From contig JADLEU010000365.1 of the NCBI GenBank assembly GCA_020845955.1, forward strand, positions 1-58,613: a DNA stretch of 58,613 nucleotides, written 5' to 3'. Each line of letters opens with the position of its first letter. The stretch's first letter is position 1. The DNA is from Anaerolineales bacterium (GTDB lineage: Bacteria; Chloroflexota; Anaerolineae; Anaerolineales; UBA6663). Position numbers and translations under genes: made by a program. Below the pieces are notes generated by a model. It searched no databases. It was given only the letters and a program-made list of their open reading frames with translations, and was not told the origin of the DNA. Positions 1,521-49,365 of this stretch are shown here, in pieces.

Positions 1521-2102
1521 GTGGCCAAGGCGAAATTCAACAAAGCGCAGCGCGAAGCTCACCTGGTGACCGTGGCCGATATGTACCTGGCCGGCCGCCG
1601 GCAGGTCGACATTGCGGCAGCGCTGGGAGTTGACCAATCGATGGTCAGCCGCTATCTGGCCACCCTCCAGGAGCGCTGGCAGGTGGCGGCCAACGAGCGG
1701 CTGGAGGCGCGCAAGGCCCGCGAACTGGCGCGCCTGGACCGGTTGGAGCGCGAGTATTGGGTCGGCTGGACCCGGTCCACGCAGAACGCCGAAACCACAG
1801 TCAATAGGTCCAAGAGCACGACAGTCAAGGCCTTCACCACCGAAGCGGGCCTGATCGACGTGCCGGCCCAGGAGAGCGAGATGACCCGCACCAGCCGCGG
1901 CCAGGCCGGCGACCCGCGCTTCCTGGATGGCGTCATGCGCTGCATCGAGATGCGGCTGCGGGTTATCGGCGGGTTTGCGCCGGCCAAGGTCGACATTAGT
2001 GACCTGCGGGAGAAGTCGGACAGTGAGCTTGTCAATGAGTTCGCCGAGCTTGTGGACGCCGCGCGAGCGCGTGCGGGTTCAGGCGATAGCGGCGGAGCTT
2101 AG
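1521..2102 (+). CDS. Terminase small subunit
   Basis: A 193-residue protein starting at GTG. Residues 20-55 form a helix-turn-helix of the phage small-terminase type (DMYLAGRRQVDIAAALGVDQ then SMVSRYLATL), followed by a charged helical segment that would oligomerise. The small subunit recognises the packaging site and delivers phage DNA to the large subunit. Its last 68 bases overlap the large-subunit gene in another frame, which suggests translational coupling. The 98 bp upstream (1423-1520) hold no gene I can support. Confidence 0.8.
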   Translation: MAKAKFNKAQREAHLVTVADMYLAGRRQVDIAAALGVDQSMVSRYLATLQERWQVAANERLEARKARELARLDRLEREYWVGWTRSTQNAETTVNRSKSTTVKAFTTEAGLIDVPAQESEMTRTSRGQAGDPRFLDGVMRCIEMRLRVIGGFAPAKVDISDLREKSDSELVNEFAELVDAARARAGSGDSGGA

Positions 2103-18040: not shown

Positions 18041-18285
18041 CCCCGGCCGGCGGGCAGGCAATCTTCAAGCTCTGGCGCGCGCACGAGCGCGGCACGCTCC
18101 CGCGCGCCGGCGGATGGGAAGAGCAGCCCTTGGCTGTCATGGTGCAAATCGAGATGATGGACCTGGTCACGAACACCGTCCGCTACATGGCGCGCAAGGA
18201 TGCCGACTGGAACAACCTGACGCGGCTGCAGCGCGATCTGGTGAGCTGGCTGGAAGGCGATTCGGAAGGCGAAGCAAATGGCTGA
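17630..18285 (+). CDS. Tail assembly chaperone GT fusion made by -1 frameshift
   Basis: About 218 residues: the first 108 shared with the G-like protein up to Pro-Lys at the slip site, then 110 from the -1 frame (SVLAAVYEWASGG, PHGWQLAPDHLTPAGGQAIF, MDLVTNTVRYMARKDADW). The T-like part is helical and ends 8 bp inside the tape-measure gene. The -1 frame has no good start codon of its own near the slip site, its coding character begins exactly there, and the gene order is tube, G, GT, tape measure. These facts together make a programmed frameshift very likely. Confidence 0.82.
17947..17953 (+). other. Programmed -1 ribosomal frameshift site CCCAAAA
   Basis: Zero-frame codons read GTC-CCA-AAA-GCG, so the heptamer is C-CCA-AAA in the canonical X-XXY-YYZ register; after slipping, CCC-AAA-AGC continues into the T-like frame. 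Identical to the candidate site at 38115-38121. Confidence 0.82.
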
Positions 18286-20536
18286 CCAAATCCCGGTGGA
18301 GCTGATTGTCGAGGCGATTGCCAAGGGCTTTGACAAAATCGAAAGCAATGTCCGCGGCACGGGCAATGCTGCCGAACAGATGGGACGCCAGGCCAAGCAG
18401 ACCAATACGGCTGTCGGCGACCTTGACGGCGGGATGACTAAGCTGGAAAAGACCGTCGCCGGCACCCGGACCACGATTGGCCGCCTGGACGACGATTTGC
18501 ACGCCTTCGGCCGCAACCTGGGCAGCACGGCGGATTTGCTGAGCGGCCTGGGGGTCAATCTCCCTATCAACCCAATGCAGCTTTTTGGGCAGGCTGTGAA
18601 GGGCGCGGCGGATTTCACCAAGGCTGCCATTGGCGAAACGGTGGCGTACGCCAAGGAAGTGCGCGACCTAGGGCGCACGATTGGCGCCAGCGCCGAAGAG
18701 AGTTCCAAGCTCATCCAGGCCGCCGATGACGTGCTGGTTTCTTACAACTCGTTGACATCGGCGCTGGAAGCCGCCGTGCGCAAGGGGGTCAAACCCACCA
18801 TCGAAGGCTTGGGTGAGCTGGCCGACGAGTACAACGACATCCAGGACCCCATCACTCGAACTAAGTTCTTGATGGACAACTTTGGCCGCTCGGGCGCTGA
18901 CCTGGCCCCGCTGATGGAGTTGGGTGCGGAAGGTGTTCGGGAGTTGGGTGACGCGGCTAAAGCTGCTGGATTGGTAATGACCGAAGAGGCAATTGAAGCT
19001 GCGCGCGAATATGAAAAAGCATTGGACAAGGTTGAAGAGCGCGTGCTGATGGTCAAGCTTGCCATTGGCAATGCTCTTGTTCCAGCCCTGGTTGATGCCT
19101 CCAATGAAGTCGATCGGCATGCGGCAGCCTGGGATCTGCTCTGGAATACACAGGGACGATTCGTCATTATCAATGGCCAGTTAGTCGCCGTGCAAGCTCG
19201 GGAATTGAGCGGTCTTGCAGATATCAATGTCGAACTGGATACCTACCAGCAATTCCTGGAAGATACTGGCGTTGCCACGGTGGGCGTTACTCAGAAGACC
19301 GAAGACTGGGGCGACGTTTTCACGCAACTCAAGGAAAAGGCTGAGAAGGCTTCGAAGGAGATCACTCGCGCGATGAAAGATCTGGCCATCGTCGTCGGCG
19401 GCGCGGTCGACGTCGAAATGGACAACTTCGCGGAAAGCCAGGATGAACTGGAAGAGAAGATTGCCGCCACCCGCGCCGAGCTTGAAAAATACCAGGCCAT
19501 GCACGGCCAGGTGCGCATGGTCACCACCGATACAGCTGAGGCCAACCGCAACCTTATTATTGCTCAGGCTGGGGCCGAGACGGCGGCGCGCAATCTGGCC
19601 GAAGCTCAAGCCGACCTGGCAAAGAACATCGACCCCGACAAGCAATTGCAATTGCAGGCAGCGGTGGCACGGGCCGAGGGCGCCCTGATTACGGCATCGG
19701 GTAAGGTGGATGAATGGAACGGGAAGCTGGCGGAGAGCGGCAATACCTTCGTCACCGACTATTCCACCAAGATCGGAGAATTTGAAGGCGACCTGGGAGA
19801 GTTGGAAAGTGCTTACGGCGCAAATGCCGATGCGCACGAGGCGGCTGTCAAGCGGATGCTGTTCAACATGGCGATGCAGCGCGCCTACGAAGACGGCGAA
19901 TATTCGACGGCCGAAAAGACTTTCCTCAGCGAATTAGCTTCCGCCTGGCAGATCAAGGGCGCCGATACCGAACTGGCGATATTCGGCATTGACAACGCGC
20001 TCAAGGCATTAGCAGACGGCGGGAGCAAGGATGCCTTCATAGCAATCGGCGATCTGCTGACGCAACTGGGCATCCTGCCGCCCTCGGGGACGAGCTGGGA
20101 CTGGTTCTTCAACATCCAAACTTCGGGCGCCTTTCCCACGGCTGGCCCCAATCCCAACTCGCCCATTCCCGATGATACCGCACCGTCCGATCCCAATGCT
20201 CCGGCGTCGCCCTCGCGCTCGGCGCCCGGAAGTCCAGCGCCCGGGCCAGTCAATCCCGGAGATCCAACGCCCCTGGCCCGTGGCGCAGACTTCATCGTGC
20301 CGCCGGGTTATCCCAACGACTCCTTTCACATGCGCGTGCAGTCGGGCGAGCACGTGACCGTCGTCCCGGCCGGCCAGGCCGGCAACCGTGGCGGGCCAAT
20401 GGTCAGCCTGACCATCGGCGCAATCACCATCGTCACCGCCGCCACCGATGCGCGCGGCATCTCACAGGACCTGGCGCGCGAGCTGCGCGACGAGCTGGCC
20501 GCCCAGGGGCTGCTGGCGGCGCTGAGCAACGGATAA
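18278..20536 (+). CDS. Tape measure protein
   Basis: A 752-residue protein following the chaperone genes. Long alpha-helical stretches fill most of it. There are hydrophobic segments around 90-115 and a long coiled coil at about 370-500 with Ala/Glu/Lys/Gln heptads, then a Pro/Ser-rich linker (about 640-675) and a C-terminal domain. The protein sets tail length and is ejected with DNA. By the lambda rule of about 0.15 nm per residue, the tail would be about 110 nm long. The start at 18278 overlaps the GT stop. Confidence 0.85.
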   Translation: MADQIPVELIVEAIAKGFDKIESNVRGTGNAAEQMGRQAKQTNTAVGDLDGGMTKLEKTVAGTRTTIGRLDDDLHAFGRNLGSTADLLSGLGVNLPINPMQLFGQAVKGAADFTKAAIGETVAYAKEVRDLGRTIGASAEESSKLIQAADDVLVSYNSLTSALEAAVRKGVKPTIEGLGELADEYNDIQDPITRTKFLMDNFGRSGADLAPLMELGAEGVRELGDAAKAAGLVMTEEAIEAAREYEKALDKVEERVLMVKLAIGNALVPALVDASNEVDRHAAAWDLLWNTQGRFVIINGQLVAVQARELSGLADINVELDTYQQFLEDTGVATVGVTQKTEDWGDVFTQLKEKAEKASKEITRAMKDLAIVVGGAVDVEMDNFAESQDELEEKIAATRAELEKYQAMHGQVRMVTTDTAEANRNLIIAQAGAETAARNLAEAQADLAKNIDPDKQLQLQAAVARAEGALITASGKVDEWNGKLAESGNTFVTDYSTKIGEFEGDLGELESAYGANADAHEAAVKRMLFNMAMQRAYEDGEYSTAEKTFLSELASAWQIKGADTELAIFGIDNALKALADGGSKDAFIAIGDLLTQLGILPPSGTSWDWFFNIQTSGAFPTAGPNPNSPIPDDTAPSDPNAPASPSRSAPGSPAPGPVNPGDPTPLARGADFIVPPGYPNDSFHMRVQSGEHVTVVPAGQAGNRGGPMVSLTIGAITIVTAATDARGISQDLARELRDELAAQGLLAALSNG

Positions 20537-30826: not shown

Positions 30827-32575
30827 TCAGACTACAAACAGGGTCGGGCTGGCGCGGACCTGGTCGCCCTGGACTTCGGCCAGCCCGTTGCGGCGCAGGA
30901 CGCCCAGGTAAGTGCGAAACGTGCCGCCGCTCGCGGCGAAGCCGGCGGCCTCGCCCAGTTCGCCGGCGGCGATCCACTCCGGGTATCGCTCCACCAGCAC
31001 GTCGAGCATCCTGGCTTCGCCCGCGCGCAGACGGGCGCGCCACATGGCCAGCATTTCGGCGGTGGTGGCGGGCGCCGGGGGCACGGCGGCGCCCAGGTAG
31101 GCCAGGCCGGCCTCGGTGACGGAGACTTCCCCGCCCTGCTCGACGATGAGGCCGGCGCGCTTGAGCACGCCGAAGTACGTGCGGAAGGTGCCGCCGCGCG
31201 GGGCGAAGCCGGAGAGCGTTCCGAGCTGGGAGACCGTGTAGCGCGCTGGGTGGCGCTGGGCGAGAGCCTGCAGCATCTTGCGTTCACCGGCGCGCAACGC
31301 GATGTCGCTCTCGGCTGGCGGCGCCTCCGGCGGCCGCGGCGCGGGCCGTGCGGCCGGGGCCGGATCCGCGTACGCGTGGTGCGGTCTTCGACCTGGCAGC
31401 GCCGCACTTTGACGTTGGACCACGGCGCGCAGGGCCTCCCCGACTTCCCCGGCGCCGGTGCGCAGCGCCTGGCTTGCGCCCAGCAGCCCATCGCCCAGCT
31501 TGCCCAGCCCCTCTGCAATCACGGCCATCTGTCCGACGGCCGACTCGAGTCGATTCACTTCGCCGTCCTTGAATACCGGGATCTCGACGCGCTCGACAAT
31601 ACGCTCGGGCAGCGGCGCCTGCACGGGCCGGGTGCGCAGCTGCTGCTCCAGTTCGCGGACGCGGCGCTGAGCGGCGGCGAGCTCGTCGGTCTCGCGCTGC
31701 ACGACGCGCGGCAGGTCGCCCAAGGACGCGACGATCTGCTGGATGGCGCCCGAGGCCGGCGGGACCTCGAGCAGGTGGCGCTGGCCGGGGCGCGGGTGGG
31801 TGGTGACGACCGGGCCGGTCCGGAAACGGTGCACGCCGCGGCCTAGCGCCGGCCCGAAGCAGTAGAACTCGCCGGGCTCGAGGTCGCGCAGCGCCAGGCG
31901 GCCGGCCTTGTCCAGGCCGAGCATGTCGCCTGCGCGGGCCTGGTCGACGTCGAGGGTGATGCCGCCGATGAAGACGTTCTTGGCGTCGCCGATGGCGTCT
32001 TTGGCCAGCTTGGAGATGCGCTGGGTGGCCAGGGCGCCGCAGACGGCGCGCTTGCGGCCGGCCGACATCAGGAAGTTGACGGCGCGGCGCGACTGGGCCA
32101 CAGGCGAGTCGGCGCGGCCGGCGGCGGTCTCGGGAGCGAAGTTGTGGGCCTCGTCGATGGGGACGTAGATGGGGTGATAGCCGCTCTTGGGTGTGTTCAT
32201 CAGCCCGTCGATGAAGGGGGCCAGGAAGGCGCGGCGCGCGTCCCAGTCGCCCAGGTCGTAGAGGTCGATGATGGCCGAGACGCGCAGCTCGGAGAGCTTG
32301 GCGGCGAGCTTGCGGGCGGTGCGGGCCTCGGCGGCGACCTCGCCGCCCGAGCCCACCAGCAGCATGTCGAATTTCTCGCGCAGCGTGTTGAACTCGCCCT
32401 CGGGGTCGATGACGATCACCTGGACCTGGCGGGCGATCTGCTCGATCAGCCGGCGCAAGAGCCAGCTCTTGCCGCCTCCGGAGCTGGCGGTGATCACCTG
32501 GCGCGAGTCGATCAGCGTGGGCACGTCGATGTGAAGCGGGCCGGCCTGGCCCTGGCCGAGCGTTACGGCGGTCAT
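30827..32575 (-). CDS. HerA-type ATPase with two C-terminal winged-helix repeats
   Basis: A 582-residue protein. HerA/FtsK-type ATPase core: Walker A at 30-37 (ASSGGGKS), IVIDPEGEF at 54-62, Walker B with acidic pair at 137-142 (YVPIDE), and a sensor-like CGALATQRISK segment. After a coiled coil (about 320-400) come two copies of a winged-helix module (AGERKMLQALAQRHPARYTV...GGTFRTYFGVLKRAGL and AGEARMLDVLVERYPEWIAA...GGTFRTYLGVLRRNGL). It overlaps the ThiF gene by one base. It is likely a hexameric DNA translocase working with the PRTRC cassette. A degenerate type B palindrome is at 31361. Confidence 0.8.
   Translation of the reverse strand: MTAVTLGQGQAGPLHIDVPTLIDSRQVITASSGGGKSWLLRRLIEQIARQVQVIVIDPEGEFNTLREKFDMLLVGSGGEVAAEARTARKLAAKLSELRVSAIIDLYDLGDWDARRAFLAPFIDGLMNTPKSGYHPIYVPIDEAHNFAPETAAGRADSPVAQSRRAVNFLMSAGRKRAVCGALATQRISKLAKDAIGDAKNVFIGGITLDVDQARAGDMLGLDKAGRLALRDLEPGEFYCFGPALGRGVHRFRTGPVVTTHPRPGQRHLLEVPPASGAIQQIVASLGDLPRVVQRETDELAAAQRRVRELEQQLRTRPVQAPLPERIVERVEIPVFKDGEVNRLESAVGQMAVIAEGLGKLGDGLLGASQALRTGAGEVGEALRAVVQRQSAALPGRRPHHAYADPAPAARPAPRPPEAPPAESDIALRAGERKMLQALAQRHPARYTVSQLGTLSGFAPRGGTFRTYFGVLKRAGLIVEQGGEVSVTEAGLAYLGAAVPPAPATTAEMLAMWRARLRAGEARMLDVLVERYPEWIAAGELGEAAGFAASGGTFRTYLGVLRRNGLAEVQGDQVRASPTLFVV
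31361..31384 (+). repeat. Type B palindrome, degenerate copy
   Basis: CGGATC then CGCGTACGCG, T and GGTGCGG. The core is intact and both arms have one mismatch. Read leftward it encodes His-His-Ala-Tyr-Ala-Asp-Pro in a linker of the HerA-type protein. Confidence 0.7.
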
Positions 32576-33471
32576 CAGGCTTTCCCCTTTGCCACCAACT
32601 CGCGCTCGTCGAGCCCGGTCGCCTCGGCTAGCGTCGGCAGGTCCAGCTGGCGCACCCGCGTGCCGCCGTAGGCCAGGTCGAAGTCGAGCGCGAACCAGCG
32701 CACCGTGCCCAGGAGGAAATCGTGCAGGAGCGCGAGGGCCCAGGCGGCCGCCATGCGGTTGACCATCAGGCCCTGAGTGCCGGCCTCGGTGAGTTCCGCG
32801 CAACTGGGCATGCGGCCGTTCGCACCGTGGCCGTTCTTCCCCGGCTTAGGCTTTGCGGGCTTGACCGCGACTACCAGGTCCGGGTTGATGAGACTCGGGG
32901 ACGGCAGGTCGCGCAGCATGCCCAGGCCCACGGCGCCGCGCAGATCCTTGGCAGCGACGCGGTTGCCCAGTGACACCTGGCCGGCGTGCTCCGAGTTGCC
33001 GGCGTCGAGCCACCACAGCCGGCCGTGCGCCTTCCCCATGGCGCTGGCGATCACGGCCCGGGCCTCGCGGTTGTCGACGGCGCCGACGACCACATTCAGA
33101 GCCGCGTGGTGGTTGGACAGCAGACTCTCATCGTCGGCCACGCGGCGCACGCCAGCGCCGATGGCCAGCCGGAAGGCGGCGTTGAGCCGGGCGGCGAGAA
33201 CGGCGGCCTTCGGCTGGCCAACGTCTCCAACAGAGAACAACTGCCGGCCGACGTTGCGCCGCTCGACGCGGTCGGGGTCGACGAACGTCATCTCGACCGG
33301 GGTGCCGCGCGCGTCCAGCGCCTGGGTGACGGCCACCAGGCCGGAGGCGATGTGGCTGCCCGTTCCACCGCAACCGATCAAGGTCAGGTGCACGCGCTCG
33401 AAGCGGGAGAGCTGCAGGCGCAGGAGCGGCGCGGCAGCCAGACTAAGCGTTGACTTCTGCTTCGGCTTCAT
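32575..33471 (-). CDS. PRTRC-type ThiF family protein (E1-like)
   Basis: A 298-residue Rossmann protein. LIGCGGTGS (31-39) is the adenylate-binding Gly-rich loop of ThiF/E1 enzymes, FVDPDRVERRNVGRQLF (63-79) holds the ribose-binding Asp and the Arg finger, and KAAVLAARLN follows. Cys224 in MPSCAEL is the candidate catalytic Cys. This pattern, including the C-terminal LMVNRMAAAWALALLHDFLL helix, is that of the ThiF protein of PRTRC cassettes. E1-like enzymes adenylate the C-terminus of a ubiquitin-like protein. It lies next to JAMM, E2-like and Ubl genes. Start ATG 33471 overlaps the upstream gene by 29 bp. Confidence 0.85.
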   Translation of the reverse strand: MKPKQKSTLSLAAAPLLRLQLSRFERVHLTLIGCGGTGSHIASGLVAVTQALDARGTPVEMTFVDPDRVERRNVGRQLFSVGDVGQPKAAVLAARLNAAFRLAIGAGVRRVADDESLLSNHHAALNVVVGAVDNREARAVIASAMGKAHGRLWWLDAGNSEHAGQVSLGNRVAAKDLRGAVGLGMLRDLPSPSLINPDLVVAVKPAKPKPGKNGHGANGRMPSCAELTEAGTQGLMVNRMAAAWALALLHDFLLGTVRWFALDFDLAYGGTRVRQLDLPTLAEATGLDERELVAKGKA

Positions 33472-34162
33472 CGCATCGCTCACACAGGTCGTACTCCGTC
33501 CACCAGGCTGCCCCATCGCCCACGCGCCGCCCGCACTGGCGGCAGCGGCCGAATGTGTCCACAAAGCACCCCAGCCCGTCGAAGATCGCCGTCGCTCGCA
33601 CGGGCATCGTGTGCCCATACACGCCCACCCGCGCGGCGATCTGCGGCTGGCGTGTGTCGAGTCTGCCAATAACGACATAGAAGCGCAGGCCCTGCTCATC
33701 GGCGTCGTCGGTAGCGCTAAAAAACGCCGGCATCGAGTTGTGCGAATGCAGGTCGACGCTGGCGCCGGCCAGGTCCAGGAAGGTGACCGCGCCGGGGCTG
33801 GCCAACTGCGCCGGGCGGGCGCAGGCCCAGCCGCCGTAGCTGTTGCGCGCCAGTGGGTCGGCCACGAGCTGGTACATGGCCTCGCTGGGCATGGCCTTGC
33901 GGGCGCTGGCCAGGATCGAGTCGAGCCAGGCCTGCGGGACGCGGGGCACGGCCAGGCGCGCGTAGGGCTCGACCATGGCCAGGCCGGAGAGCGGCCGCAG
34001 GCTGGGGGCGACCGGCACGAGCGCCTCGATGCGGCCGTCGGCGGCGCGCACGTATAGGCCGCCGGCGCCGACCACGTACTGCACGAAGCCCCGGATCGGC
34101 GGCAGCTCGGGGCCGGTCGCCAGCACGCAACTGGCCAGCTCGAAGTCGTCAGGAGCCATCAT
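33443..34162 (-). CDS. PRTRC protein A-like JAMM metalloprotease with zinc ribbon
   Basis: A 239-residue protein. HSH-NSMPAFF-SATD (139-152) is a complete JAMM motif, His-x-His-x7-Ser-x2-Asp, and follows the strand LAGASVDLHS; the rest of the domain (LVADPLARNSYGGWACARPA) fits PRTRC protein A. The C-terminus has a four-Cys zinc ribbon (CRQCG...CERCDEA), which I would not expect in the minimal family. JAMM proteases remove or trim ubiquitin-like proteins. ATG 34162 overlaps the stop of the E2-like gene (ATGA), so the two are coupled. Confidence 0.85.
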   Translation of the reverse strand: MMAPDDFELASCVLATGPELPPIRGFVQYVVGAGGLYVRAADGRIEALVPVAPSLRPLSGLAMVEPYARLAVPRVPQAWLDSILASARKAMPSEAMYQLVADPLARNSYGGWACARPAQLASPGAVTFLDLAGASVDLHSHNSMPAFFSATDDADEQGLRFYVVIGRLDTRQPQIAARVGVYGHTMPVRATAIFDGLGCFVDTFGRCRQCGRRVGDGAAWWTEYDLCERCDEAEAEVNA

Positions 34163-35031
34163 GCCGCTAACTCCACTTCGTCTTCCACACCACCCCAGAC
34201 GGCCGGGTCGTCGTCTTCGTCATCCCAATCGTTCCATTCGGGGTCGGGCTCGACGTCGTCATCGTCGTCGTCCCAATCCAGGTACGCCTGGCCCTGGCCC
34301 TGGCCCCGGGCGAAGTCGCCCAGGGTCAGGCCGGCGCGCTTGAGTTGATCAGCCGGGAATTCTGTCTGCCCGCGCAGGCTGGCCAGGAAGTCGAAAAGCG
34401 GACCGGGCGCGGCGATACGGCGCTCGCTCTGGTGGTCGTTGAAGCGCGACTCCCAGAAGATGGCGGCCGCCTGGTGGATGGTGGCCGGGGAGGCCTTTGG
34501 GAACGGCTCATTGCCGGCACAGATCGCCCCGTTGTCGGAGATGTTGGGCAGCGGGGCATGGTAGAGCGGTGCGCGCTCGGTCCGCTCCAGGCAGGCGAAG
34601 ACGTAATAGCTGCCGCCCCGGCCGGCCAGGACCAGGTTAGGCAGCGGGATCTCCAGCGGCCGCTCGTGCCGGCCGGCGCGCCAGTAAATCGTGCGGACGC
34701 CGGCCGGCAGCCACAGCCCGACGCGCTCCGGCTCGTCGCGTTTTCCGGCCGCCTGCCAGAACAGGACGTCGGGCGGCAGGAGCCCCGTGCTCACGCCTGA
34801 CAGGCCGCCGAAGCAGTTGGCGACGTCGCGGGCGGACACCGGGTAGGTGACCACCGGCTTGCCTCGGGCGTCGTAGCGGGTCAGCCACAGGGACTCGGCC
34901 GTGGCGGTGAGCGTCACGCGCGCCACGCGGTCGAAGGCTTCCTTGGGGAGCTTGACAGGCTGTGGCTTCGCCCCGGGCTTGACCTTTGCCGCTTTGCGAG
35001 TGGCCTTGCGCGCGGGTTTACGACCGGCCAT
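34159..35031 (-). CDS. PRTRC protein B-like, E2-like protein
   Basis: A 290-residue protein. After a basic Lys/Ala/Pro N-terminus, strands and helices lead to YHAPLPNISDNGAICAGNEP (157-176), with Cys171 at the site of the E2 catalytic Cys, then HQAAAIFWESRFNDHQSERR. This matches protein B of PRTRC cassettes, which comparative genomics treats as E2-like. The C-terminus is highly acidic (runs of Asp). The product could accept the ubiquitin-like protein from the ThiF protein. Start ATG 35031 was chosen since upstream in-frame codons lie in the previous gene. Confidence 0.8.
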   Translation of the reverse strand: MAGRKPARKATRKAAKVKPGAKPQPVKLPKEAFDRVARVTLTATAESLWLTRYDARGKPVVTYPVSARDVANCFGGLSGVSTGLLPPDVLFWQAAGKRDEPERVGLWLPAGVRTIYWRAGRHERPLEIPLPNLVLAGRGGSYYVFACLERTERAPLYHAPLPNISDNGAICAGNEPFPKASPATIHQAAAIFWESRFNDHQSERRIAAPGPLFDFLASLRGQTEFPADQLKRAGLTLGDFARGQGQGQAYLDWDDDDDDVEPDPEWNDWDDEDDDPAVWGGVEDEVELAA

Positions 35032-35884
35032 TGCGCTTCTCCTTTGCAGCGAACACGCTTGCCAGCGTCGCGCGCCTGCCCGCCGGCCGGGTGATGGTCT
35101 GCAGCACGAGCGGGTCGCCGCGCAGCGCGGCGTCGAGCGTGCGCAATCGCTCGCGCGGCTTCTCATCCACGTACACGGCCAGGCTATAGATGTGATCCCA
35201 CATCGGCCCGGCGCGCTTGTACTGCTGTTCCAGCGCCCGGATCTCGGAAAGCCGCCAGTCCGGATTGGGGCTCGCGTCAGCGGTCTCGAAGTCGGTATCC
35301 AGGTAGTAGGTGCGCGTCGCGCCCTGCACGTACAGGCACAGGTCGGGGAGCCCGTTCCAGGGCTTGACCCACTCGCGCCCGCGCGGCCGGCGGATGGTGT
35401 ACGGCTGGCTCTGCTCGTGCAGGAGCGGCGCGGCCGCGTGCACGCCCGGCCACCAAGTCATCACCCACCGGTCCAGGTTGCCGGCCGCCTCGTGCAGGGA
35501 CAGGCCGTCGTTTGGACTCTCCATACCGAAGCCGCCGGCGACCGTGGCCACGGCCAGGTCGAGTGCGGGCGACGAGTTCTCCCAGTGCCAGCCGTTGACG
35601 GCGACAGGGATGCCGCGCGACCAGGCCCAGGACAGCGACTCGAGCTCGTCGACCTCGACCATGATGCTCCACAGGTTGAGCGGGAAGCGGCGCATCACGT
35701 TGCTCAGCAGCGCCCGGTAGCAGCCGCGCGGGTCGGCCAGTTTCAGCCGCTTCGCTCTTGCCGGATCAAGGGCCTGCATGAGCTTCAGCATGCCCTGTGC
35801 CGCGGCCAGATCCTGCACCCGGTCGAAGAGCCAGGTCCGGCGGTAGGCGGTGGCCGGCAGCGCCGGCGCGGCCGGTAATGCCAT
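35018..35884 (-). CDS. PRTRC-cassette protein of unknown function (protein F slot)
   Basis: A 288-residue protein between the Ubl and E2-like genes. It is Trp-rich with segments FPLNLWSIMVEVDELESLSW, AWSRGIPVAVNGWHWENSSP and LPDLCLYVQGATRTYYLDTD. Position and general pattern resemble the poorly characterised PRTRC protein F, but I cannot prove it. Starts overlap upstream stop (ATG 35884 or 35890). It may be a structural part of the complex. Confidence 0.55.
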   Translation of the reverse strand: MALPAAPALPATAYRRTWLFDRVQDLAAAQGMLKLMQALDPARAKRLKLADPRGCYRALLSNVMRRFPLNLWSIMVEVDELESLSWAWSRGIPVAVNGWHWENSSPALDLAVATVAGGFGMESPNDGLSLHEAAGNLDRWVMTWWPGVHAAAPLLHEQSQPYTIRRPRGREWVKPWNGLPDLCLYVQGATRTYYLDTDFETADASPNPDWRLSEIRALEQQYKRAGPMWDHIYSLAVYVDEKPRERLRTLDAALRGDPLVLQTITRPAGRRATLASVFAAKEKRNGRS

Positions 35885-35886
35885 GT

Positions 35887-36339
35887 TCACAGCAGCGGGC
35901 TCACGTCCAGCTTGGCGGCCGCCTGCGTCCAGTCCGGGCGAACCGCGGCCAGGTCGCGCCCCAACTCCTCGGCGGCCTGCGCCTGGGAGAGCAGCCGCTG
36001 CCCGGCGCGCTCGAAGTCGCGGCCGGGGCCGGGCGGACTGCCCAGGGCGACGTCGATGAACCAGGCCGGGGCGATGGGCGTCTCGCGTACCCGCAGCAGC
36101 CGCTTGAAAACGACGGCCGCGGCCGCGTCGCCGGCCCCCCCACGGGGGCCGTGGCCTTTCGTCCCAGCCTTCTTGCTGTAGACCCAGATCTTCTTGTCCT
36201 TCTCCGTCTTGGTCTCAATCTTGGGATCGGCCAGCTCGGGGAAGAAGCGCCGCATCTGTTCGGTCACCTGGGCTTGAGTCATGCCCTCGGGCACAGGGAT
36301 GCGCTTCTGGCCATACTCCGCAAACACAGTCTCAGCCAT
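35887..36339 (-). CDS. PRTRC protein C-like ubiquitin-like protein with C-terminal extension
   Basis: A 150-residue protein. Residues 1-62 (VFAEYGQKRIPVPEGMTQAQ, MRRFFPELADPKIETKTEKD, IWVYSKKAGTKG) match PRTRC protein C, which as I recall is only about 70 residues and ends soon after GTKG. Here GTKG (59-62) is followed by 88 more residues: a Gly-rich link and a helical domain (AGQRLLSQAQAAEELGRDLA). This suggests a precursor or fusion that the JAMM protease might cut after GTKG. Start ATG 36339 has GGAGGGCAGCG upstream. The fold is inferred. Confidence 0.75.
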   Translation of the reverse strand: MAETVFAEYGQKRIPVPEGMTQAQVTEQMRRFFPELADPKIETKTEKDKKIWVYSKKAGTKGHGPRGGAGDAAAAVVFKRLLRVRETPIAPAWFIDVALGSPPGPGRDFERAGQRLLSQAQAAEELGRDLAAVRPDWTQAAAKLDVSPLL

Positions 36340-36754
36340 CGCTGCCCTCCAACTCCAACGCCAGTTGTGCTTCGTCGGCGCCGCCTCCGGGCGAGTCGCC
36401 CTCGATCTCGGGCAGGTCGGGCGCGGCCGGACCAATTGGTCCGCTTTCTCCATGCTCAGCGTCCGCTTCCGGATCTGCCGGCATTTCCGCTTTTGCCGCT
36501 TTTGCCCGCTTGCCAGACTTGGCGGTCTTTCGGCCCTTGCCGACTTGACCGGCGCCCATGGCCTTCGGCGCGGGCTTGCTCGCCGCGGTCAGCAGCTCGC
36601 CGTAGGCCTGGCGCTCCAGGGCCTGCCAGTCGGCGAATACGCCTGACCGCAGGGACACGAGTTCCCCCTCCGGGCCGGCGCCGACGGTGATCGGGCGCTT
36701 GCCGTTCTTGAACGGGTAGATGGTGGTGATGATCACGATGGGTTTGTCGCTCAC
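36332..36754 (-). CDS. PRTRC-cassette small protein (protein E slot)
   Basis: A 140-residue protein with an N-terminal beta part (IVIITTIYPFKNGKRPITVG, then ELVSLRSGVFADWQALERQA) and a disordered, Lys/Ala-rich and then acidic tail. It lies just upstream of the Ubl gene, with an 8-bp overlap. The position is that of the variable PRTRC protein E, but I see no certain match. A type A palindrome lies in the disordered tail at 36428. Confidence 0.5.
   Translation of the reverse strand: MSDKPIVIITTIYPFKNGKRPITVGAGPEGELVSLRSGVFADWQALERQAYGELLTAASKPAPKAMGAGQVGKGRKTAKSGKRAKAAKAEMPADPEADAEHGESGPIGPAAPDLPEIEGDSPGGGADEAQLALELEGSDG
36428..36443. repeat. Type A palindrome, copy 4
   Basis: CGGACCAATTGGTCCG, identical to 26665-26680, placed in a disordered part of the gene, where it reads Ser-Gly-Pro-Ile-Gly-Pro on the minus strand. 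Confidence 0.85.
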
Positions 36755-36954
36755 GCTTCGCGGCCCTCCGCCAGCAGATCCACATAGCAGTCGGCCGGGA
36801 TGCGGTGCTCCTGGCCGTCCACGGTCACGGTTTCGTTGAGCGGGTCGATGTCTGTCAGGCGCTCCAGGGCTTCGGCGCGCGTCTGGATGTTGAACGTCCG
36901 CTTGATCCAGGCGGCCAGCTTGGGATCGTCGAGCACGACTCTGGGTCCGTTCAT
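36751..36954 (-). CDS. Small phage protein of unknown function
   Basis: A 67-residue alpha/beta protein (DDPKLAAWIKRTFNIQTRAE, then DGQEHRIPADCYVDLLAEGR). It overlaps both neighbours by 4 bp within the PRTRC operon. No family recognised. Confidence 0.55.
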   Translation of the reverse strand: MNGPRVVLDDPKLAAWIKRTFNIQTRAEALERLTDIDPLNETVTVDGQEHRIPADCYVDLLAEGREA

Positions 36955-37766
36955 AGCGCCGCTCCGCAGTTGTCGCACCACGGCTCGCCAGGCTTGACGG
37001 GCTGCTTGCAGCTGGGGCAGCGTGGCGGACCAGCCGGCTCTTTGGTGCCCGGCTTGCCCGCCGGCGGGGTTCCTGCGCGGGAATAGGCTGCCTTGAGCAG
37101 GTTGCCGGCGACGATCAGCGCCTGGTCGAGCTGGCCCACCAGCCGCCGGGCCGCGTCGTCGTCGGCCAGCCAGGGATGGTTGGCCAGGAAGCTGCGCGCG
37201 CTGGTCAGGATGGCCTGGAGCGTGGTGGCATCGTCGGCGCCGACGGCAGGCGCGGGAGCCGGCGCGGGCTTGCCGTTCGTCGCCGGCCGCGTGTGACGCG
37301 GCTTGTCGTCCTTTTTGGCCGGCCTCGGCTTGCCGGTGACGGCGGCCACGACCTCGGCCACCTTCTCGGCCGAGGCGTTGGCGATGGTAGCCTGCTTCAT
37401 CTGCAGCTTTTCGGCGACGCGCTGCAGCACGATCGGGTCGTTGGCCACGGGCGCTAGGACGCGGGCCACCGATTCGCTGGACGGCTCGACGCCGACGGCG
37501 GCCTTGACCTTCTCAGCCGTTTCGGCCGCGGCGATCAGGCGGCGCCCGTGGCGGTCGGTGAAGTCCCAGACCCTCTCGCAGTAGGCTTCGAAGGTCTTGA
37601 AGCCGCGCAGCCGGTAGCCGCGACCGTCGCGGATGCGGATGAGGGCCAGGCCGACGCGCTGGAAGGCCTTGATGTCGGTGCGGATTTGCTGCTCCAGCGC
37701 GGCCATCTCGGCTTCGGCGAGCGGGGCGATTACCGTGGTCTCATTCGTCTTCGTCAGGGTCGTCAT
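36951..37766 (-). CDS. KfrA/ParB-like helical DNA-binding protein with zinc ribbon
   Basis: A 271-residue protein. Residues 20-90 carry GLALIRIRDGRGYRLRGFKT, then FEAYCERVWDFTDRHGRRLI, a helical module that also opens the methyltransferase at 42560-43507. A Pro/Ala/Lys-rich linker, a helix (residues 175-235) and a C-terminal zinc ribbon (CPSCKQPVKPGEPWCDNCG) follow. In PRTRC loci a ParB-like protein is expected; this protein may take that place, but no ParB motif is visible. It overlaps the end of the -1 frame that comes from the upstream gene. Confidence 0.6.
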   Translation of the reverse strand: MTTLTKTNETTVIAPLAEAEMAALEQQIRTDIKAFQRVGLALIRIRDGRGYRLRGFKTFEAYCERVWDFTDRHGRRLIAAAETAEKVKAAVGVEPSSESVARVLAPVANDPIVLQRVAEKLQMKQATIANASAEKVAEVVAAVTGKPRPAKKDDKPRHTRPATNGKPAPAPAPAVGADDATTLQAILTSARSFLANHPWLADDDAARRLVGQLDQALIVAGNLLKAAYSRAGTPPAGKPGTKEPAGPPRCPSCKQPVKPGEPWCDNCGAAL

Positions 37767-38787: not shown

Positions 38788-38978
38788 GGCTGCAGCGCCT
38801 GAGCCCGGCTGCAGCGCTCGCAGCGGTAAATGCTTTCGTGCGTCGTGGCCGTCTCGGCGGCCAGCACGTGGCGGGTCACGGCCGCGCAGCGCGGGCAGCG
38901 CGCCAGGCGCACGTGCGGGAGCCCGGCGGCAGCGCGGCCGATCAGGCGGATGAAGACGACGGCCGGGTTGGTGATCAT
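38784..38978 (-). CDS. Small zinc-ribbon protein
   Basis: A 64-residue protein with two CxxC pairs (CPRCAAVTRHVL and YRCERCSRA), forming a zinc ribbon as in small RNA- or DNA-binding proteins. It overlaps the nuclease and helicase genes by 4 bp each. Confidence 0.6.
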   Translation of the reverse strand: MITNPAVVFIRLIGRAAAGLPHVRLARCPRCAAVTRHVLAAETATTHESIYRCERCSRAQALQP

Positions 38979-40294
38979 GATGGTCTCAGCCTGGAAAGCG
39001 GCTCAAAGCTCATGTGCTCGGCGATGAAGGCGAACTGTGCCCGGGCGTTGCGCTCCCCTTCGCGCGCTTTGCGGTTGATCAGCTCCGCGATGCAGTCAGC
39101 CTTGGTGTTGTAATAACTTTCGCGGTAGAGCGCCGTCACCGTGTCGGCGTTCTCTTCGATCTCGCCGCTGTCGCGCAAGTCTTTCAAGTCCGGGCGCTTG
39201 TCCCCCTGGACCTCGACGCCGCGGTTGAGCTGCGCGGCGGCCAGCACCGGCACGTCCAGCGCCTTGGCCAGGCACTTGAACCCCCAGGCGATCGCGCCGG
39301 CGCGCTTGTTCTCGTTCTCCGCCCGGTCGGCGAACAGGCGCAGGTGGTCGGCGACGACCAGCGCGAGCGGTCCCGCCTGACGGGCCAGGCGCTCGCACGC
39401 GGCGCGGACCTCGTCGGTCGTCTGCGGCGTGCTGTCGTCGATCCAGAGCGTCTGGCGGCTGGCCAGCTCGCCAATCTCGCTCAGCAAGCGCCCGCGCGCC
39501 TCATCGTCCAAGCGGCGCTGGCGCCAGGCCAGCACCGACACACGCGCGCGCCGGGCCGCCATGCGCAGCAGGATCTGGCGCGCGTTCATCTCCTTCGAGA
39601 AAAATGCCACCGGCCCCGTGTACCGGCTGACGAAATCGGAAAGCTGGCAGAGCAGTGCCGTCTTGCCCATCGCCGGACGCGCCATGACGAACGTCGCCGT
39701 GCCGCGTTCCAGGCCGCCGCCCAGCGTCTCGTCCCAGGCGGACAGTCCTGTCGAGACCATGCGCTCGCCCAGCCGCTCGGGCTCGACGATGTATGGCCAG
39801 ATGTCTTCGGCTATTTCCCCAGATGGCGCCAGGTGGTCCGGCGCGCTCGCCGCGGCCAATTCCGGCCCGCGGGCCAGCACGGCGTCTAGAGCGGACTCGC
39901 CATCCCCATAGGCCGCCCTGGCCACCGCGGCCGCATATTCCAGCGCGCGCCGGCGTTGATGCTCGCGCGCCACGATGCGGGCATAACTCTCGGCATAGGC
40001 GCTATTAGGCGTCTCGGTCATCAGCCGCACCAGGTAGGCGGCGCCGCCGATCTCCTCGAGTTTCCCCCGCCCCTCGAGCGCGCTGGTAACGGTCACGAAA
40101 TCGACGGCCTGGCTGCTCGCCTGCAGTCCGGCGACGGTCTCCCACACCCAGCGGTGCTGCTGCAGATAAAACATCTCCGGACTGACCCATCTCAATTCGC
40201 CGGCCAGGGCCGGATCGATCAGCGCCGCGCCGACCAAAGCGCGCTCAGCCTGCGCGTCATACGGCGCGCCGCGGATTTCAGGATAGGCGCTCAT
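38975..40294 (-). CDS. dnaB: DnaB-type replicative helicase
   Basis: A 439-residue protein of the usual DnaB length. N-terminal helical domain at 10-120 (EIRGAPYDAQAERALVGAAL, LEEIGGAAYLVRLMTETP). RecA-like domain: Walker A at 205-212 (ARPAMGKT), the H1-like FFSKEMNARQILLRM, Walker B-like LALVVADHLRLF, and RDSGEIEENADTVTALYRES. The Walker B acidic residue is followed by His instead of the common Tyr. It unwinds the phage template and is loaded by the initiator encoded next to it (4-bp overlap). Confidence 0.92.
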   Translation of the reverse strand: MSAYPEIRGAPYDAQAERALVGAALIDPALAGELRWVSPEMFYLQQHRWVWETVAGLQASSQAVDFVTVTSALEGRGKLEEIGGAAYLVRLMTETPNSAYAESYARIVAREHQRRRALEYAAAVARAAYGDGESALDAVLARGPELAAASAPDHLAPSGEIAEDIWPYIVEPERLGERMVSTGLSAWDETLGGGLERGTATFVMARPAMGKTALLCQLSDFVSRYTGPVAFFSKEMNARQILLRMAARRARVSVLAWRQRRLDDEARGRLLSEIGELASRQTLWIDDSTPQTTDEVRAACERLARQAGPLALVVADHLRLFADRAENENKRAGAIAWGFKCLAKALDVPVLAAAQLNRGVEVQGDKRPDLKDLRDSGEIEENADTVTALYRESYYNTKADCIAELINRKAREGERNARAQFAFIAEHMSFEPLSRLRPS

Positions 40295-41123: not shown

Positions 41124-41429
41124 CTATTCGGGCTCGACCAGCATTGCCGGCCGGGCCCACCGGCCGACGAGCGCATGGCGGCGGCCTTCGCGGCGCGGTG
41201 TGGGGATGACGCCGGGGACCACCGGCTCGGGCCAGTGCTTGAGCACGATCGTCCATTCGGCGTCGGAGGGCGCCTGGTCGTAGCGCGCGATGGTGAGCTG
41301 CACCGTGCCGTCGGCGGCCTGGAGCACGTCCAGCACCAGGCCGCGCGGCAGGCTGCGGCGGATGGGCAGGCCGGTGTGGGCGCGCGCGTCGGCCAGCATG
41401 GCGCGCAGGGTGTGCTTGAGCGTGGTCAC
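41124..41429 (-). CDS. Conserved phage protein of unknown function
   Basis: A 101-residue protein with LKHTLRAMLADARAHTGLPI, RRSLPRGLVLDVLQ, DAEWTIVLKHWPEPVVPG. I have the impression that this is a widespread early-region protein in phages and prophages of Chloroflexota-type hosts. No function is known to me. It overlaps recT by 4 bp. Confidence 0.6.
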   Translation of the reverse strand: MTTLKHTLRAMLADARAHTGLPIRRSLPRGLVLDVLQAADGTVQLTIARYDQAPSDAEWTIVLKHWPEPVVPGVIPTPRREGRRHALVGRWARPAMLVEPE

Positions 41430-42340
41430 TCGGCACCGCCCTCGGCGCTGCCGATGCGGTGTCGCCCCTTGCTCCTGCTGGCCTGGGCGTCACGGACGGC
41501 GATCTCGGCGTCCGCGTCGGCGTTGGACGCGTAGGGCGGCTCGGGCTCGGCTGGCGCGCTGGGTGGGGCCGGCGGCGCGTCTTCGTCTGGGCCGTAGAGC
41601 GCGGCCTTGTCGGCGGCGTGGCTGGCGCCGTTCCCATTCGCCGGCCGCTGGTCATCCGTCGGCTCGTCGGCGGCCAGGGCCTGGCGCATCTCGATCGACA
41701 TGATGCCCCAGGTGCGCAGCAGGTCGGACAGCACGGTCTTGAGCTCCATGGCCGGCGTCGCCGTCTGCCAGGCGCCATCCTTGCGGTCATAGCCCTGCGA
41801 GTAGTGCCGGGCGTGGGCGTGGATCTTGTCCAGCGGCCAGTAGACGAACTTCTCGAAGCCGCTGGCCAGCTTCAGGTAGGCCAGCACGCCGACTACCGTC
41901 TCGCTCTGGGGCGGGCTGAAGCGCAACTGCCCGGTGAAGCGGTTGACGATCTCCACTTCGCCTTCCAGCACGTGGGCGACTTCGAGCTTCAGGTATTGCC
42001 CGGTGCGCAGCGCGAGTTGGATGATGCCCTTGTAGCCGGGCTGGAAGCGCGCCTGGCCCTTGTAGGGCACGAGATAGGCGAAGCCCAGGTTCTCGTTGAT
42101 GGGCAGGTCCAGCGCGGCCGCCTGCAGCGCCGCGGCGATGACAGTATTGGGATCGCACTCGGCCAGTTTGGGCTTGGCGTAGACCAGCGTGCTGAGCGAG
42201 GCGATGAACATGGCGGCCTTGTGCTTGTCGCCCATGACCTGCTCAAAGCGGTCGCGCACGCTGGCGGCCTGCAAGAGGGCCCGGACGCTGCCGGAGGCCG
42301 GGGTCGGCAGGCGGCCGGTCGTCACGGATTGGTCAGCCAT
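41426..42340 (-). CDS. recT: RecT-family single-strand annealing protein
   Basis: A 304-residue protein. Central motifs of RecT: FIASLSTLVYAKPKLAECDP, VIAAALQAAALDLPINENLG, FAYLVPYKGQARFQPGYKGI, IQLALRTGQYLKLEVAHVLE. These form the DNA-binding core of annealing proteins that pair complementary strands in phage recombination. The C-terminus is acidic and Pro-rich and may bind an SSB partner. ATG 42340 overlaps the frame-shifted end of the upstream gene by 8 bp. Confidence 0.92.
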   Translation of the reverse strand: MADQSVTTGRLPTPASGSVRALLQAASVRDRFEQVMGDKHKAAMFIASLSTLVYAKPKLAECDPNTVIAAALQAAALDLPINENLGFAYLVPYKGQARFQPGYKGIIQLALRTGQYLKLEVAHVLEGEVEIVNRFTGQLRFSPPQSETVVGVLAYLKLASGFEKFVYWPLDKIHAHARHYSQGYDRKDGAWQTATPAMELKTVLSDLLRTWGIMSIEMRQALAADEPTDDQRPANGNGASHAADKAALYGPDEDAPPAPPSAPAEPEPPYASNADADAEIAVRDAQASRSKGRHRIGSAEGGAE

Positions 42341-42579
42341 AGTAGTATCCTTTCAGTTCGTCTTCGTCGATCTTCACCACGCGAACAGCCAATTCCTTCT
42401 TCCACGTACACCTGCCGCCGGATGCGCACGAGTCTGCGGTCGCCCAATTTCTGGCCCCGCTCTTCGTCGGCGCTGAGCACCTCCACCTGCCAGCCCCGCC
42501 GGCCGTAGTAGCCGTCCAGAAACGCCTCGACGTCCTTCCCGCGCTGGAACTGGGCCGTCTCAACTAAACGTCGTGCCAT
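42333..42579 (-). pseudogene. Frameshifted small protein (possible nuclease-like), upstream of recT
   Basis: Frame one begins at ATG 42579 with MARRLVETAQFQRGKDVEAF, LDGYYGRRGWQVEVLSADEE and RGQKLGDRRLVRIRRQVYVE. Then the coding character jumps by +1 to a frame ending KELAVRVVKIDEDELKGYYY-Gly-stop at 42333; zero-frame ribosomes would end at 42322 after an unlike tail. One extra base (near 42396) explains it. Either a sequencing or mutational frameshift, or a rare +1 site. The pattern Lys-Asp-x-Glu and GDR recalls small phage DNA enzymes, but I make no claim about the family. Confidence 0.5.
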
Positions 42580-43507
42580 TGCCGAGTGTCCCGAAATACA
42601 TCTGATCCGGCAGTTCCAGTTTCCAGGTGAACCAGGCCACGGGGAACTGCGCCCCGCCACCCTCCCAGCCCTTCTTGGGCATTTTGAAGTTGACGCGCCG
42701 GTCCAGGAACAGCACTTCCAGGCCGTGCCGCTTGAACAGCGTTTGCGCCCTGCTGGCGCCCAGCGTTTCGACCGGCAGCAGCAGCGCGAACGGGCGGCCC
42801 AGCCGGTAGCAGCGCTCCAGCCACTCGTACTTGATGCTGTAGGGGGGATTGGTGACCAGGCAGTGCCAGGGCTCGGGCGGGGCGTACTCGAAGAAGTTCT
42901 GGCCGGTGAGGAGGTCGGTGCCGAGGCAGCGCCGGTCGGCGTCGTAGAAGGCCTCCACCAGCAACCCTTCCCCGCAGGCCGGCTCCCAGATGGTCCATTC
43001 CATCGGCAGGAAGGGCAGCAGCGGGTCGATGGCGTAAGGCGGGGTCTGGCAGGCATCGTAACCTTGCGGCACGTAGGCATCGCCCGCGCGGTTGGATTTG
43101 TTGTCGCGCTTGTAGTTGAAATCGCGCACGACCTGCTCAACGATCGCGGCGGTGGGCTGGCCGTTCGCGCGCCGGGTCGCCTCGTCCCAGGCCGCCTGCT
43201 GCTGCTCGGCGGCGAGCTGGGCCATGGGGCGGACCTGCCTTTCGGCGTCGGGCAGAATGGGAACCGTGGTTCCCAAATTGCCCACGGTTTCAGCAGCCCC
43301 AATCAGTTGGTTGGCGCGCCGCCGCGTCATGCCCCAGCGCTCTTGGGTGTATTCTTCGAAGGTCTTATGGCTGGCACGGTACAGCCGGCCGTCGCGGATG
43401 CGCAGCAGGGCGTTTCCCACTTCGACGAACGTCGATAGGCCAAGCTGGATGATGGTTTCCAGCCGCGCCAGTTCTTTGCTTTCGTTCCTTGCCAGTTCGT
43501 CAGCCAT
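42560..43507 (-). CDS. DNA adenine methyltransferase fused to a KfrA-like N-terminal module
   Basis: A 315-residue protein. Residues 15-75 (LGLSTFVEVGNALLRIRDGR, THKTFEEYTQERW-type helices) resemble the N-terminal module of the 36951-37766 protein. The C-terminal methyltransferase domain has motif I WEPACGEGLLVEAF and motif IV TNPPYSIKYEWLERC, the NPPY of N6-adenine or N4-cytosine enzymes. There is no restriction partner nearby, so it is a solitary enzyme that may protect phage DNA or control gene expression. Start ATG 43507; it overlaps the next gene by 20 bp. Confidence 0.8.
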   Translation of the reverse strand: MADELARNESKELARLETIIQLGLSTFVEVGNALLRIRDGRLYRASHKTFEEYTQERWGMTRRRANQLIGAAETVGNLGTTVPILPDAERQVRPMAQLAAEQQQAAWDEATRRANGQPTAAIVEQVVRDFNYKRDNKSNRAGDAYVPQGYDACQTPPYAIDPLLPFLPMEWTIWEPACGEGLLVEAFYDADRRCLGTDLLTGQNFFEYAPPEPWHCLVTNPPYSIKYEWLERCYRLGRPFALLLPVETLGASRAQTLFKRHGLEVLFLDRRVNFKMPKKGWEGGGAQFPVAWFTWKLELPDQMYFGTLGNGTTFS

Positions 43508-47823: not shown

Positions 47824-49365
47824 ATGCCCAACTCCTCCAATGGCCACAAAGCCACAGACTTGTCCCGCGCCGCGATCTACCGCCGCGTCTCATCCGAGGT
47901 GCAGGGGAAGCGTGTTAGTCCGGAAGAGCAACTGGCGGACTGCGAAGCCTACGCCCAGGGTCGCGGCTACACGGTCGTGGCGGTGTACTCCGATATAGAG
48001 CGCTACCGCTCCGCCGGGCGGCTGGTGGAGCCCTCCGGCACGCGCACTGACCGCCCAGATTTCCAGCGCTTGCTGGCGGACGCGCGGGATGGAAAGCTCG
48101 ACGTCGTCATCGCCTGGAAGGAAGACCGGCTCTACCGCGGTGTCAAGCCCGCGGTGCTGGTGGGTGACTTGCTGGAAGAGACCCCCGTCACGGTCGAGCT
48201 GGTCAAAGAGACCTTCGACCGCAAGATGTTGTTCATCAAGAGCGCTATCGGGAAACTGGAGATCGAGAGCATTCGCGAGCGGACCGAGATGGGCATGAAG
48301 GCCCGGATGCGCAAAGGGCTCATTCACGGCGGGCCGGTTCCGGCCGGCTACGTCGGGGTGAAGGGGGATGATGGGCAAACCTGCGGCTACGTGCTCGACC
48401 CGGCCTGGCGCGGTTTCTTCGACGACCTGGCCCGCCTGTACATCACCCGTCTGCCGCTGGCGGAGATCGGCCGGCGGCTGTCGCCCGACCCGCGCACTGG
48501 CCGGCCGTGGCTGGATTCGACGCTGAGCTACATCCTGCGCAACCCATTCTATCGCGGCCAGATTGCCTACGGATGGCAGAACGGGAAGCCTGAGTTTATC
48601 GTCCCCGGCCGGCACGCGCCCGCCTGGGACGCGGAAACGTGCGCGGCCGTCGAGCGCGAACTGGCCCGCCGCGGCGGCCGGCACAATGGCCCGCGCAGCC
48701 GCGCCCTGCTGTCGGGAATACTGCGCTGCGGCCTGTGCGGCCAAACCATGGCGTGCGGAACAACGCACGTCCCGGCGCGCAATGGCCAGCGCCGCTACGC
48801 CTACCGCTACTACGGCTGTGCTCGCCCGGTGATGGTCCGCGACGGCCGCTGGCATGGGCGCCGCACCCACGCGGCGAATTACATCAACGAGACGAAATGC
48901 CTGCGGCTCATCCAGGGTCTCCTGGCTGGCCTCGATGCGTCGCAGATCGACGGCTGGCTGACGCAGCTGGCCATGGCGCTTGGCGGGCCGACGCCGGATG
49001 ATGGGACGCGGCGCGCGCGCCTGGAAGCCGAAGCCGAGACGCTTCGCGCGAGACTGGCCGACCTGGCCGTGGGTCTCGATGGCGTGCGGAACGCCTCGCC
49101 CGCGGCAACCGAGACGATCCTGTCTGCGATCACCACTACCGGCAAGCAACTTGACCAGGTGCGGGCAGAGCTGGATGAGTTGGGGCGCCGGCAGTCGGCC
49201 GCGCCGGATTTAGCGCAAGCCCGCGACGCCATCATGCGCCTGGTCGGGGAACTGGAGGTATGGGATGAGCCGGCCACGCTGCAGCCGCTGCTGCAGACCG
49301 CGTTTCCCGCGCTGTACGTGGCTGGCGGCCAGTTTGTTTCTCCCGTCCCTGTGTGGGAGAATTGA
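47824..49365 (+). CDS. int: Large serine integrase
   Basis: A 513-residue protein. Catalytic domain: YRRVSSEVQG with Ser23 as nucleophile, a CxxYAQGRGYTVVAVYSDI-type strand, and DGKLDVVIAWKEDRLYRG. The recombinase domain (MRKGLIHGGPVPAGYVGVKG, LAEIGRRLSPDPRTGRPWLD, YILRNPFYRGQIAYG) follows, then a zinc ribbon (CGLCGQTMAC...YYGCARP) and a coiled coil (RLEAEAETLRARLADLA). It recombines attP and attB without other factors for integration; a directionality factor is needed for excision. It lies at the end of the prophage, next to attR. Confidence 0.93.
   Translation: MPNSSNGHKATDLSRAAIYRRVSSEVQGKRVSPEEQLADCEAYAQGRGYTVVAVYSDIERYRSAGRLVEPSGTRTDRPDFQRLLADARDGKLDVVIAWKEDRLYRGVKPAVLVGDLLEETPVTVELVKETFDRKMLFIKSAIGKLEIESIRERTEMGMKARMRKGLIHGGPVPAGYVGVKGDDGQTCGYVLDPAWRGFFDDLARLYITRLPLAEIGRRLSPDPRTGRPWLDSTLSYILRNPFYRGQIAYGWQNGKPEFIVPGRHAPAWDAETCAAVERELARRGGRHNGPRSRALLSGILRCGLCGQTMACGTTHVPARNGQRRYAYRYYGCARPVMVRDGRWHGRRTHAANYINETKCLRLIQGLLAGLDASQIDGWLTQLAMALGGPTPDDGTRRARLEAEAETLRARLADLAVGLDGVRNASPAATETILSAITTTGKQLDQVRAELDELGRRQSAAPDLAQARDAIMRLVGELEVWDEPATLQPLLQTAFPALYVAGGQFVSPVPVWEN

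Follow-up and report, generated by a model that had tools for sequence, protein, structure and literature searches.

Gene organization of the prophage operon

The window, 58,613 nucleotides of a contig from an Anaerolineales bacterium (JADLEU010000365.1), contains a tailed prophage, and the evidence supports the presence within it of a cassette of the PRTRC kind, encoding a ubiquitin-like protein (Ubl) together with E2-like, JAMM and E1-like proteins. The cassette is part of a run of nine co-directional genes on the minus strand (30827-37766), which according to the gene calls form one operon and are joined by overlaps of 1 to 29 bases or separated by gaps of 2 to 14 bases. From the 5' end these are g271, a small open reading frame (ORF), the E-slot gene, the Ubl gene (C), the F-slot gene, the E2-like gene (B), the JAMM gene (A), thiF and the HerA gene. 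The Ubl precursor (35887-36339; 150 amino acids) is divided, on the basis of alignments, AlphaFold2 and VIA-align, into a predicted beta-grasp domain (residues 1-58), a flexible GTKG stretch (59-62) and a helical extension of 88 amino acids. It is followed by the F-slot helical protein (35018-35884; 288 amino acids), the E2-like conjugating protein (PRTRC-B/Prok-E2_D; 34159-35031) with N163 and C171, the JAMM peptidase (PRTRC-A/Prok-JAB; 33443-34159) with E93, H138, H140, S148 and D151, and the E1-like ThiF protein (32575-33471) with GxGGTG and Cys224. The run ends with the gene of a HerA/DUF87 ATPase (30827-32575), in whose C-terminal part two repeats are seen.

Upstream of the Ubl gene lie the E-slot gene (36332-36754; 140 amino acids), whose product has relatives only at loci L011-L014 and L002 and at one genome locus, and a small ORF of uncertain start (36751-36936) which overlaps the E-slot gene by four bases. 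The first gene of the operon, g271 (36951-37766), has a DUF3102-like N-terminus and a zinc-ribbon, the latter recognised through weak matches. Homologues of g271 occupy the same position at L011-L014, and g271 is located where PRTRC has ParB. It is paralogous to a gene at 42560-43507, with which it shares the DUF3102-like N-terminus, the second gene having an apparent methyltransferase C-terminus.

The initial annotation described five adjacent genes beginning with a Ubl that ends in GTKG. The common direction and the short overlaps hold, but the F-slot gene parts the Ubl from the E2-like gene, three further genes (E-like, small ORF and g271) lie upstream within the same interval, and GTKG is followed by 88 residues in the same open frame. 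Its remaining readings were borne out: Cys171 is present at that position in the E2-like protein, the HxHx7SxxD motif of the JAMM protein is seen as HSHx7SATD in addition to Glu93, the GxGGxG of ThiF is found as GxGGTG with the candidate Cys224, and the PF01935 match and the gene calls confirm a HerA-type ATPase with a one-base overlap to thiF. The two putative winged helices of HerA appear in the sequence as a pair of C-terminal repeats.

Active-site conservation and family matches

Residue conservation was counted protein by protein over 115-167 related loci. Cys224 of ThiF is retained in all 162 aligned loci and Gly62 of the Ubl in all 134, while H138, H140, S148 and D151 of the JAMM protein are invariant (115/115) and Glu93 is nearly so (112/115). 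The protein carries the complete JAMM/MPN+ residue pattern (Glu plus HxHx7SxxD). It also has some 90 residues at the N-terminus, the part in which JAB proteins of operon type 6d (see below) have a domain with strictly conserved Arg and Trp. In the E2-like protein, Asn163 is found in 155 of 156 loci and Cys171 in 153 of 156, the three remaining loci each having a cysteine close by. Asn163 precedes Cys171 by eight residues. The same eight-residue spacing between asparagine and cysteine occurs in eukaryotic E2 enzymes. A sequence search of the PDB with the E2 profile gave no relative, and one with the JAMM profile gave weak matches only, among them Citrobacter BubCD (E 0.045).

All four enzymes of the operon exceed their Pfam thresholds: ThiF scores 62.1 against PF00899 (gathering score 28.1), the JAMM protein 30.8 bits against PF14464, Prok-JAB (cutoff 25), the E2-like protein 73.9 bits against PF14460, Prok-E2_D (cutoff 25), and HerA 45.2 bits against PF01935, DUF87/HerA (cutoff 23.2). 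With respect to the PRTRC families of NCBIfam, ThiF lies above the cutoff for PRTRC ThiF (TIGR03736; 148.2 versus 144.75 bits), while the JAMM protein (PRTRC_A, TIGR03735; E 3.7e-19, 69 bits, cutoff 101.8) and the E2-like protein (PRTRC_B, TIGR03737; E 9.6e-19, 67.6 bits, cutoff 131.45) give clear similarity under the cutoffs. The Ubl has no match to TIGR03738, yet a single profile retrieves both it and annotated PRTRC C proteins. No NCBIfam PRTRC match was obtained for the E-slot and F-slot proteins, and in profile comparisons with the PRTRC families the probability was 0.1% for F and 23% across 20 columns for E. Profiles seeded from the Cupriavidus PRTRC ParB and from the ParM-like protein of viral contig L002, the latter a proxy for PRTRC D, matched nothing in the window. 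The ParM-like protein itself is an actin homologue encoded immediately after ThiF in that contig (8980-9951).

The profile comparison with PRTRC which the initial annotation had proposed as a check matched ThiF above its cutoff and A and B under theirs, and the catalytic residues were kept on realignment. Its suggestion that the first four genes fit PRTRC stands in part, since strict membership holds for ThiF and does not extend to the ParB, D, E and F components. The window cassette resembles PRTRC (NCBIfam TIGR03734-03742; Cupriavidus necator pBB2) in its C-F-B-A-ThiF order, homologous A and B proteins and identical catalytic residues; it differs in lacking ParB and D, in its unrelated E and F proteins, in the long Ubl extension and in being borne by a prophage. 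With ParB, D, E and F missing or unrelated, PRTRC in the strict sense was ruled out.

A sister branch of PRTRC

The F slot is filled by one of two families, the window type (66 loci) or the PRTRC_F type (33 loci), which are unrelated by profile comparison and never occur together at one locus. On the ThiF tree the split between the two F types is a single change with a support of 100, while virus and non-virus labels change nine times. The window system is therefore, as judged from sequence, a sister branch of PRTRC with a distinct F protein, and members of both branches have moved among viruses, plasmids and chromosomes. The AlphaFold2 model of the F-slot protein has a mean predicted local distance difference test (pLDDT) score of 82.6, and no match to it was found in the PDB with Foldseek. 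A cassette on the Pseudanabaena galeata plasmid pPg_03 has the same F family, the same gene order and a ThiF 37% identical to that of the window; unlike the window it is plasmid-borne, and its Ubl stops two residues past GTKG, followed by a separate gene of 83 amino acids.

The window also contains the gene set of the type 6d operons defined by Iyer, Burroughs and Aravind in 2006 (PMC1779556), that is, Ub-like, helical, E2-like (without the HPN histidine), JAB and E1 proteins in one operon. The distribution of type 6d takes in cyanobacteria. As described, type 6d had no phage carriers and a small standalone Ubl, whereas here many members have an extension of 60-114 amino acids. Conjugation was predicted for this operon type, and roles such as addiction or protection against invading replicons were suggested (PMC1779556).

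The Ubl, a presumed precursor, and the JAMM peptidase

In the AlphaFold2 model the Ubl consists of a beta-grasp domain (pLDDT about 90), the flexible GTKG and a separate helical extension. In VIA-align, residues 1-61 match SUMO, FAT10, ubiquitin and MoaD with middling Z scores of 5-6, with protein G and protein L matching as well, and Foldseek with the same model returned nothing below E 0.1. The MoaD match, together with the similarity of ThiF to ThiF/MoeB, could point to a sulfur carrier of the ThiS/MoaD type or other metabolite chemistry rather than protein conjugation. We regard this as very improbable, as the operon encodes a dedicated E2-like protein with conserved Asn and Cys and a JAMM protease, and no rhodanese or metabolic enzyme is found within it; Iyer et al. 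(PMC1779556) likewise argue for conjugation in this operon type.

The length of the Ubl is distributed in a distinctive manner. Of 79 loci, 23 have the conserved glycine as the last residue and 46 have a tail longer than 60 residues after it, with few intermediates. Of 129 scored loci, those with a JAMM gene have an extended Ubl in 62 cases and a non-extended one in 33, while the Ubl is not extended in any of the 34 loci without JAMM. The JAMM-less viral loci were rechecked for leftover JAMM motifs, and in both viral and genome loci the space separating B from ThiF was inspected. This pattern, together with the flexible GTKG of the fold model, suggests that JAMM trims the extended precursor by cutting after Gly62, which would become C-terminal only upon this presumed cleavage. 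About 13 changes of the extension are seen on the ThiF tree, against about four of JAMM.

JAMM-less cassettes of the PRTRC type are common in Bacteroidota. They are found at L050, L058, L060, L065, L069, L074, L077, L078, L080-L083, L086, L088, L204, L207 and L215 and at Bacteroidota loci among L243-L270, and in this set the Ubl finishes exactly at the glycine. At two loci, in Eubacterium and another bacterium (L248 and L250), the Ubl profile matches within far longer frames, with more than 550 residues past the motif.

Prophage setting and distribution among mobile elements

The initial annotation of a complete tailed prophage agrees with the presence of terminase, head, tape measure and integrase genes and of host flanks on both sides. 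On the plus strand are genes for the terminase large subunit (TerL; 2035-3438; phrog_2, E 2.7e-35), the major head protein (7850-8749; phrog_371, E 3.8e-13), the tail tape measure protein (18278-20536; phrog_2854 and others) and, at the right prophage end, a large serine recombinase (integrase; 47824-49365; phrog_95, E 3e-68). The early module, on the minus strand, includes a DnaB-like replicative helicase (38975-40294; phrog_19, E 3.7e-80), which is the upstream neighbour of the operon, and a RecT-like annealing protein (41426-42340; phrog_148, E 1.4e-57). Positions 1-332 were recognised by sequence as the 3' end of the host dnaN, the remainder of which is carried by another contig of the same genome (C163) that has a 127-base overlap with the start of the window. 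Host genes start again at about 50 kb. A comparison of the right border with contig C163 for an attL/attR core gave no common stretch longer than 12 bases.

With a single ThiF pattern, relatives were found to be encoded in 179 viral contigs, of which 80 were retrieved. Nearly all of these IMG/VR contigs have C, B and ThiF, and most have A too, in unchanged order; across viral and plasmid loci the order E-C-F-B-A-ThiF is kept. The neighbours of the viral cassettes include TerL, portal, capsid, integrase, ParB and DnaB genes, and a PF03237 terminase is present in 17 of 40 cassette-bearing viral records. The isolated tailed Burkholderia phage BgVeeders33 (OK665841) resembles the window in having a complete cassette with an extended Ubl; it differs in its E and F proteins, which are of the PRTRC_E and PRTRC_F types, and no HerA was found in it. 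The cassette is unnamed in the phage record. More distant ThiF-like proteins were seen in Vibrio and Bacillus phages (OZ195729.1, OZ196140.1, OZ196545.1 and OM634661.1). Among plasmids, 162 records have a ThiF match, and cassettes of this kind are present in genomes of several phyla, the closest named relative of the window cassette being that of an uncultured Chloroflexi bacterium (ThiF 48% identical), which makes it likely that the host belongs to the Chloroflexota. None of the A, B, C, E and F proteins has a family in PHROGs v4, and the titles and abstract openings of the literature mentioning PRTRC and phages present no phage PRTRC system. Earlier descriptions of the gene set concern plasmids and other mobile elements; new here is its occurrence in some 80 predicted viral contigs of IMG/VR and in BgVeeders33, an isolated phage.

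The early-module position, and the intact cassette of BgVeeders33, would be expected if the phage tagged host proteins early in infection as a means of counter-defence or host takeover. The same operon is however carried by large plasmids as well as chromosomes across many phyla, which makes a phage-only purpose unlikely, and we consider this explanation to have a small chance of being correct.

HerA and the cassette

The initial annotation had coupled the cassette functionally to HerA, which did not withstand a reciprocal survey. Phages widely encode the HerA family of the window, marked by the pair of repeats at the C-terminus: at least 122 IMG/VR viral contigs have a member, and in only 3 of 80 retrieved phage HerA loci does the retrieved stretch also hold the cassette. 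Conversely, a HerA match is present in 9 of 48 cassette-bearing viral records and absent from 39; in five of the nine the match extends to the C-terminal repeats, one of these being the C-terminal part only. The one-base overlap in the window, and a HerA gene in four of the five members of the closest ThiF clade, would suit a single machine, with the Ubl as the regulator of a DNA translocase. As most phage HerA genes occur without the cassette (77/80) and most cassettes without HerA (39/48), this is very unlikely, and HerA was rejected as a conserved member of the cassette. The overlap of thiF and the HerA gene is a local arrangement and not a defining coupling. HerA may rather be a phage DNA-handling ATPase, placed on the shared transcript by chance in this lineage. 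Beside it is a small phage protein (29745-30125; phrog_29525) which resembles one encoded in a distant phage, L074 (4975-5544), and at four more viral loci; in L074 and these four loci the relatives lie near the cassette.

Proposed function of the cassette

The general idea of the initial annotation, a protein-modification system serving the element which carries it, is still the best reading. We consider it probable that the cassette is a PRTRC-related Ubl conjugation system of the phage early module, which matures its Ubl and attaches it to targets. The Ubl would first be synthesised as a precursor whose C-terminal helical domain is disposable, and JAMM, to judge from the extension pattern, would cleave it after Gly62. 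The conserved residues are consistent with ThiF adenylating Gly62 and forming a thioester at Cys224, from which the Ubl would be handed to the E2-like protein at Cys171, where Asn163 would stand for the E2 catalytic asparagine, and then be joined to lysines of target proteins. JAMM may also be able to undo the conjugation. The F-slot protein might, more speculatively, be a system-specific helical factor involved in target choice. The DnaB and RecT neighbours here, and ParB or DnaB in other elements, point to replication, partition or early takeover rather than virion assembly, and a role of the cassette in the replication or maintenance of the element may be speculated upon.

Several observations weigh against this interpretation. 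With only about four JAMM changes on the tree, the link between JAMM and the extension is not independently significant, and the JAMM-less Ubl of locus L062 ends in Ala rather than Gly. The E2-like protein has another residue in place of the HPN histidine, as also remarked by Iyer et al. (PMC1779556). Placing a function by gene neighbourhood is indirect, and the searched portions of the PRTRC literature contain no biochemistry for any member.

Prophages frequently carry defence genes. The ubiquitin-like systems of Bil and CBASS act against phages (PMC13373217, PMC11354881). The prophage could accordingly guard its host by attaching the tag to other phages' structural proteins. The window shares with Bil the working logic of Ubl, E1, E2 and JAMM, and the Bil Ubl precursor is likewise trimmed by its own JAMM, but the E1 and E2 architectures are different and Bil is not known from phage early modules. 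None of the A, B, C, E and F proteins was matched by a PADLOC model, and ThiF gave only generic E1-fold matches; in the lack of any system-specific match, Bil and other PADLOC defence systems were ruled out as the identity of the cassette. The cassette is moreover located within the early replication module and not in a cargo position, and plasmid versions adjoin ParB. A role in lysogen defence is thus unlikely.

Beyond the conjugation system proposed for the window, it is possible, although we advance this only tentatively, that many tailed phages carry a complete Ubl conjugation pathway as regular early genes and not as bacterial defence, with a disposable-domain precursor matured by the phage's own JAMM. 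Such a pathway would act on how the element replicates or partitions. For this operon type, predicted in 2006, the compact phage version with its essentially invariant catalytic residues, together with BgVeeders33, makes the biochemical role directly testable. The pattern yields a sharp prediction, namely that JAMM cleaves the precursor after GxKG. If true, a full Ubl cascade would be among the tools that bacterial viruses use for themselves.

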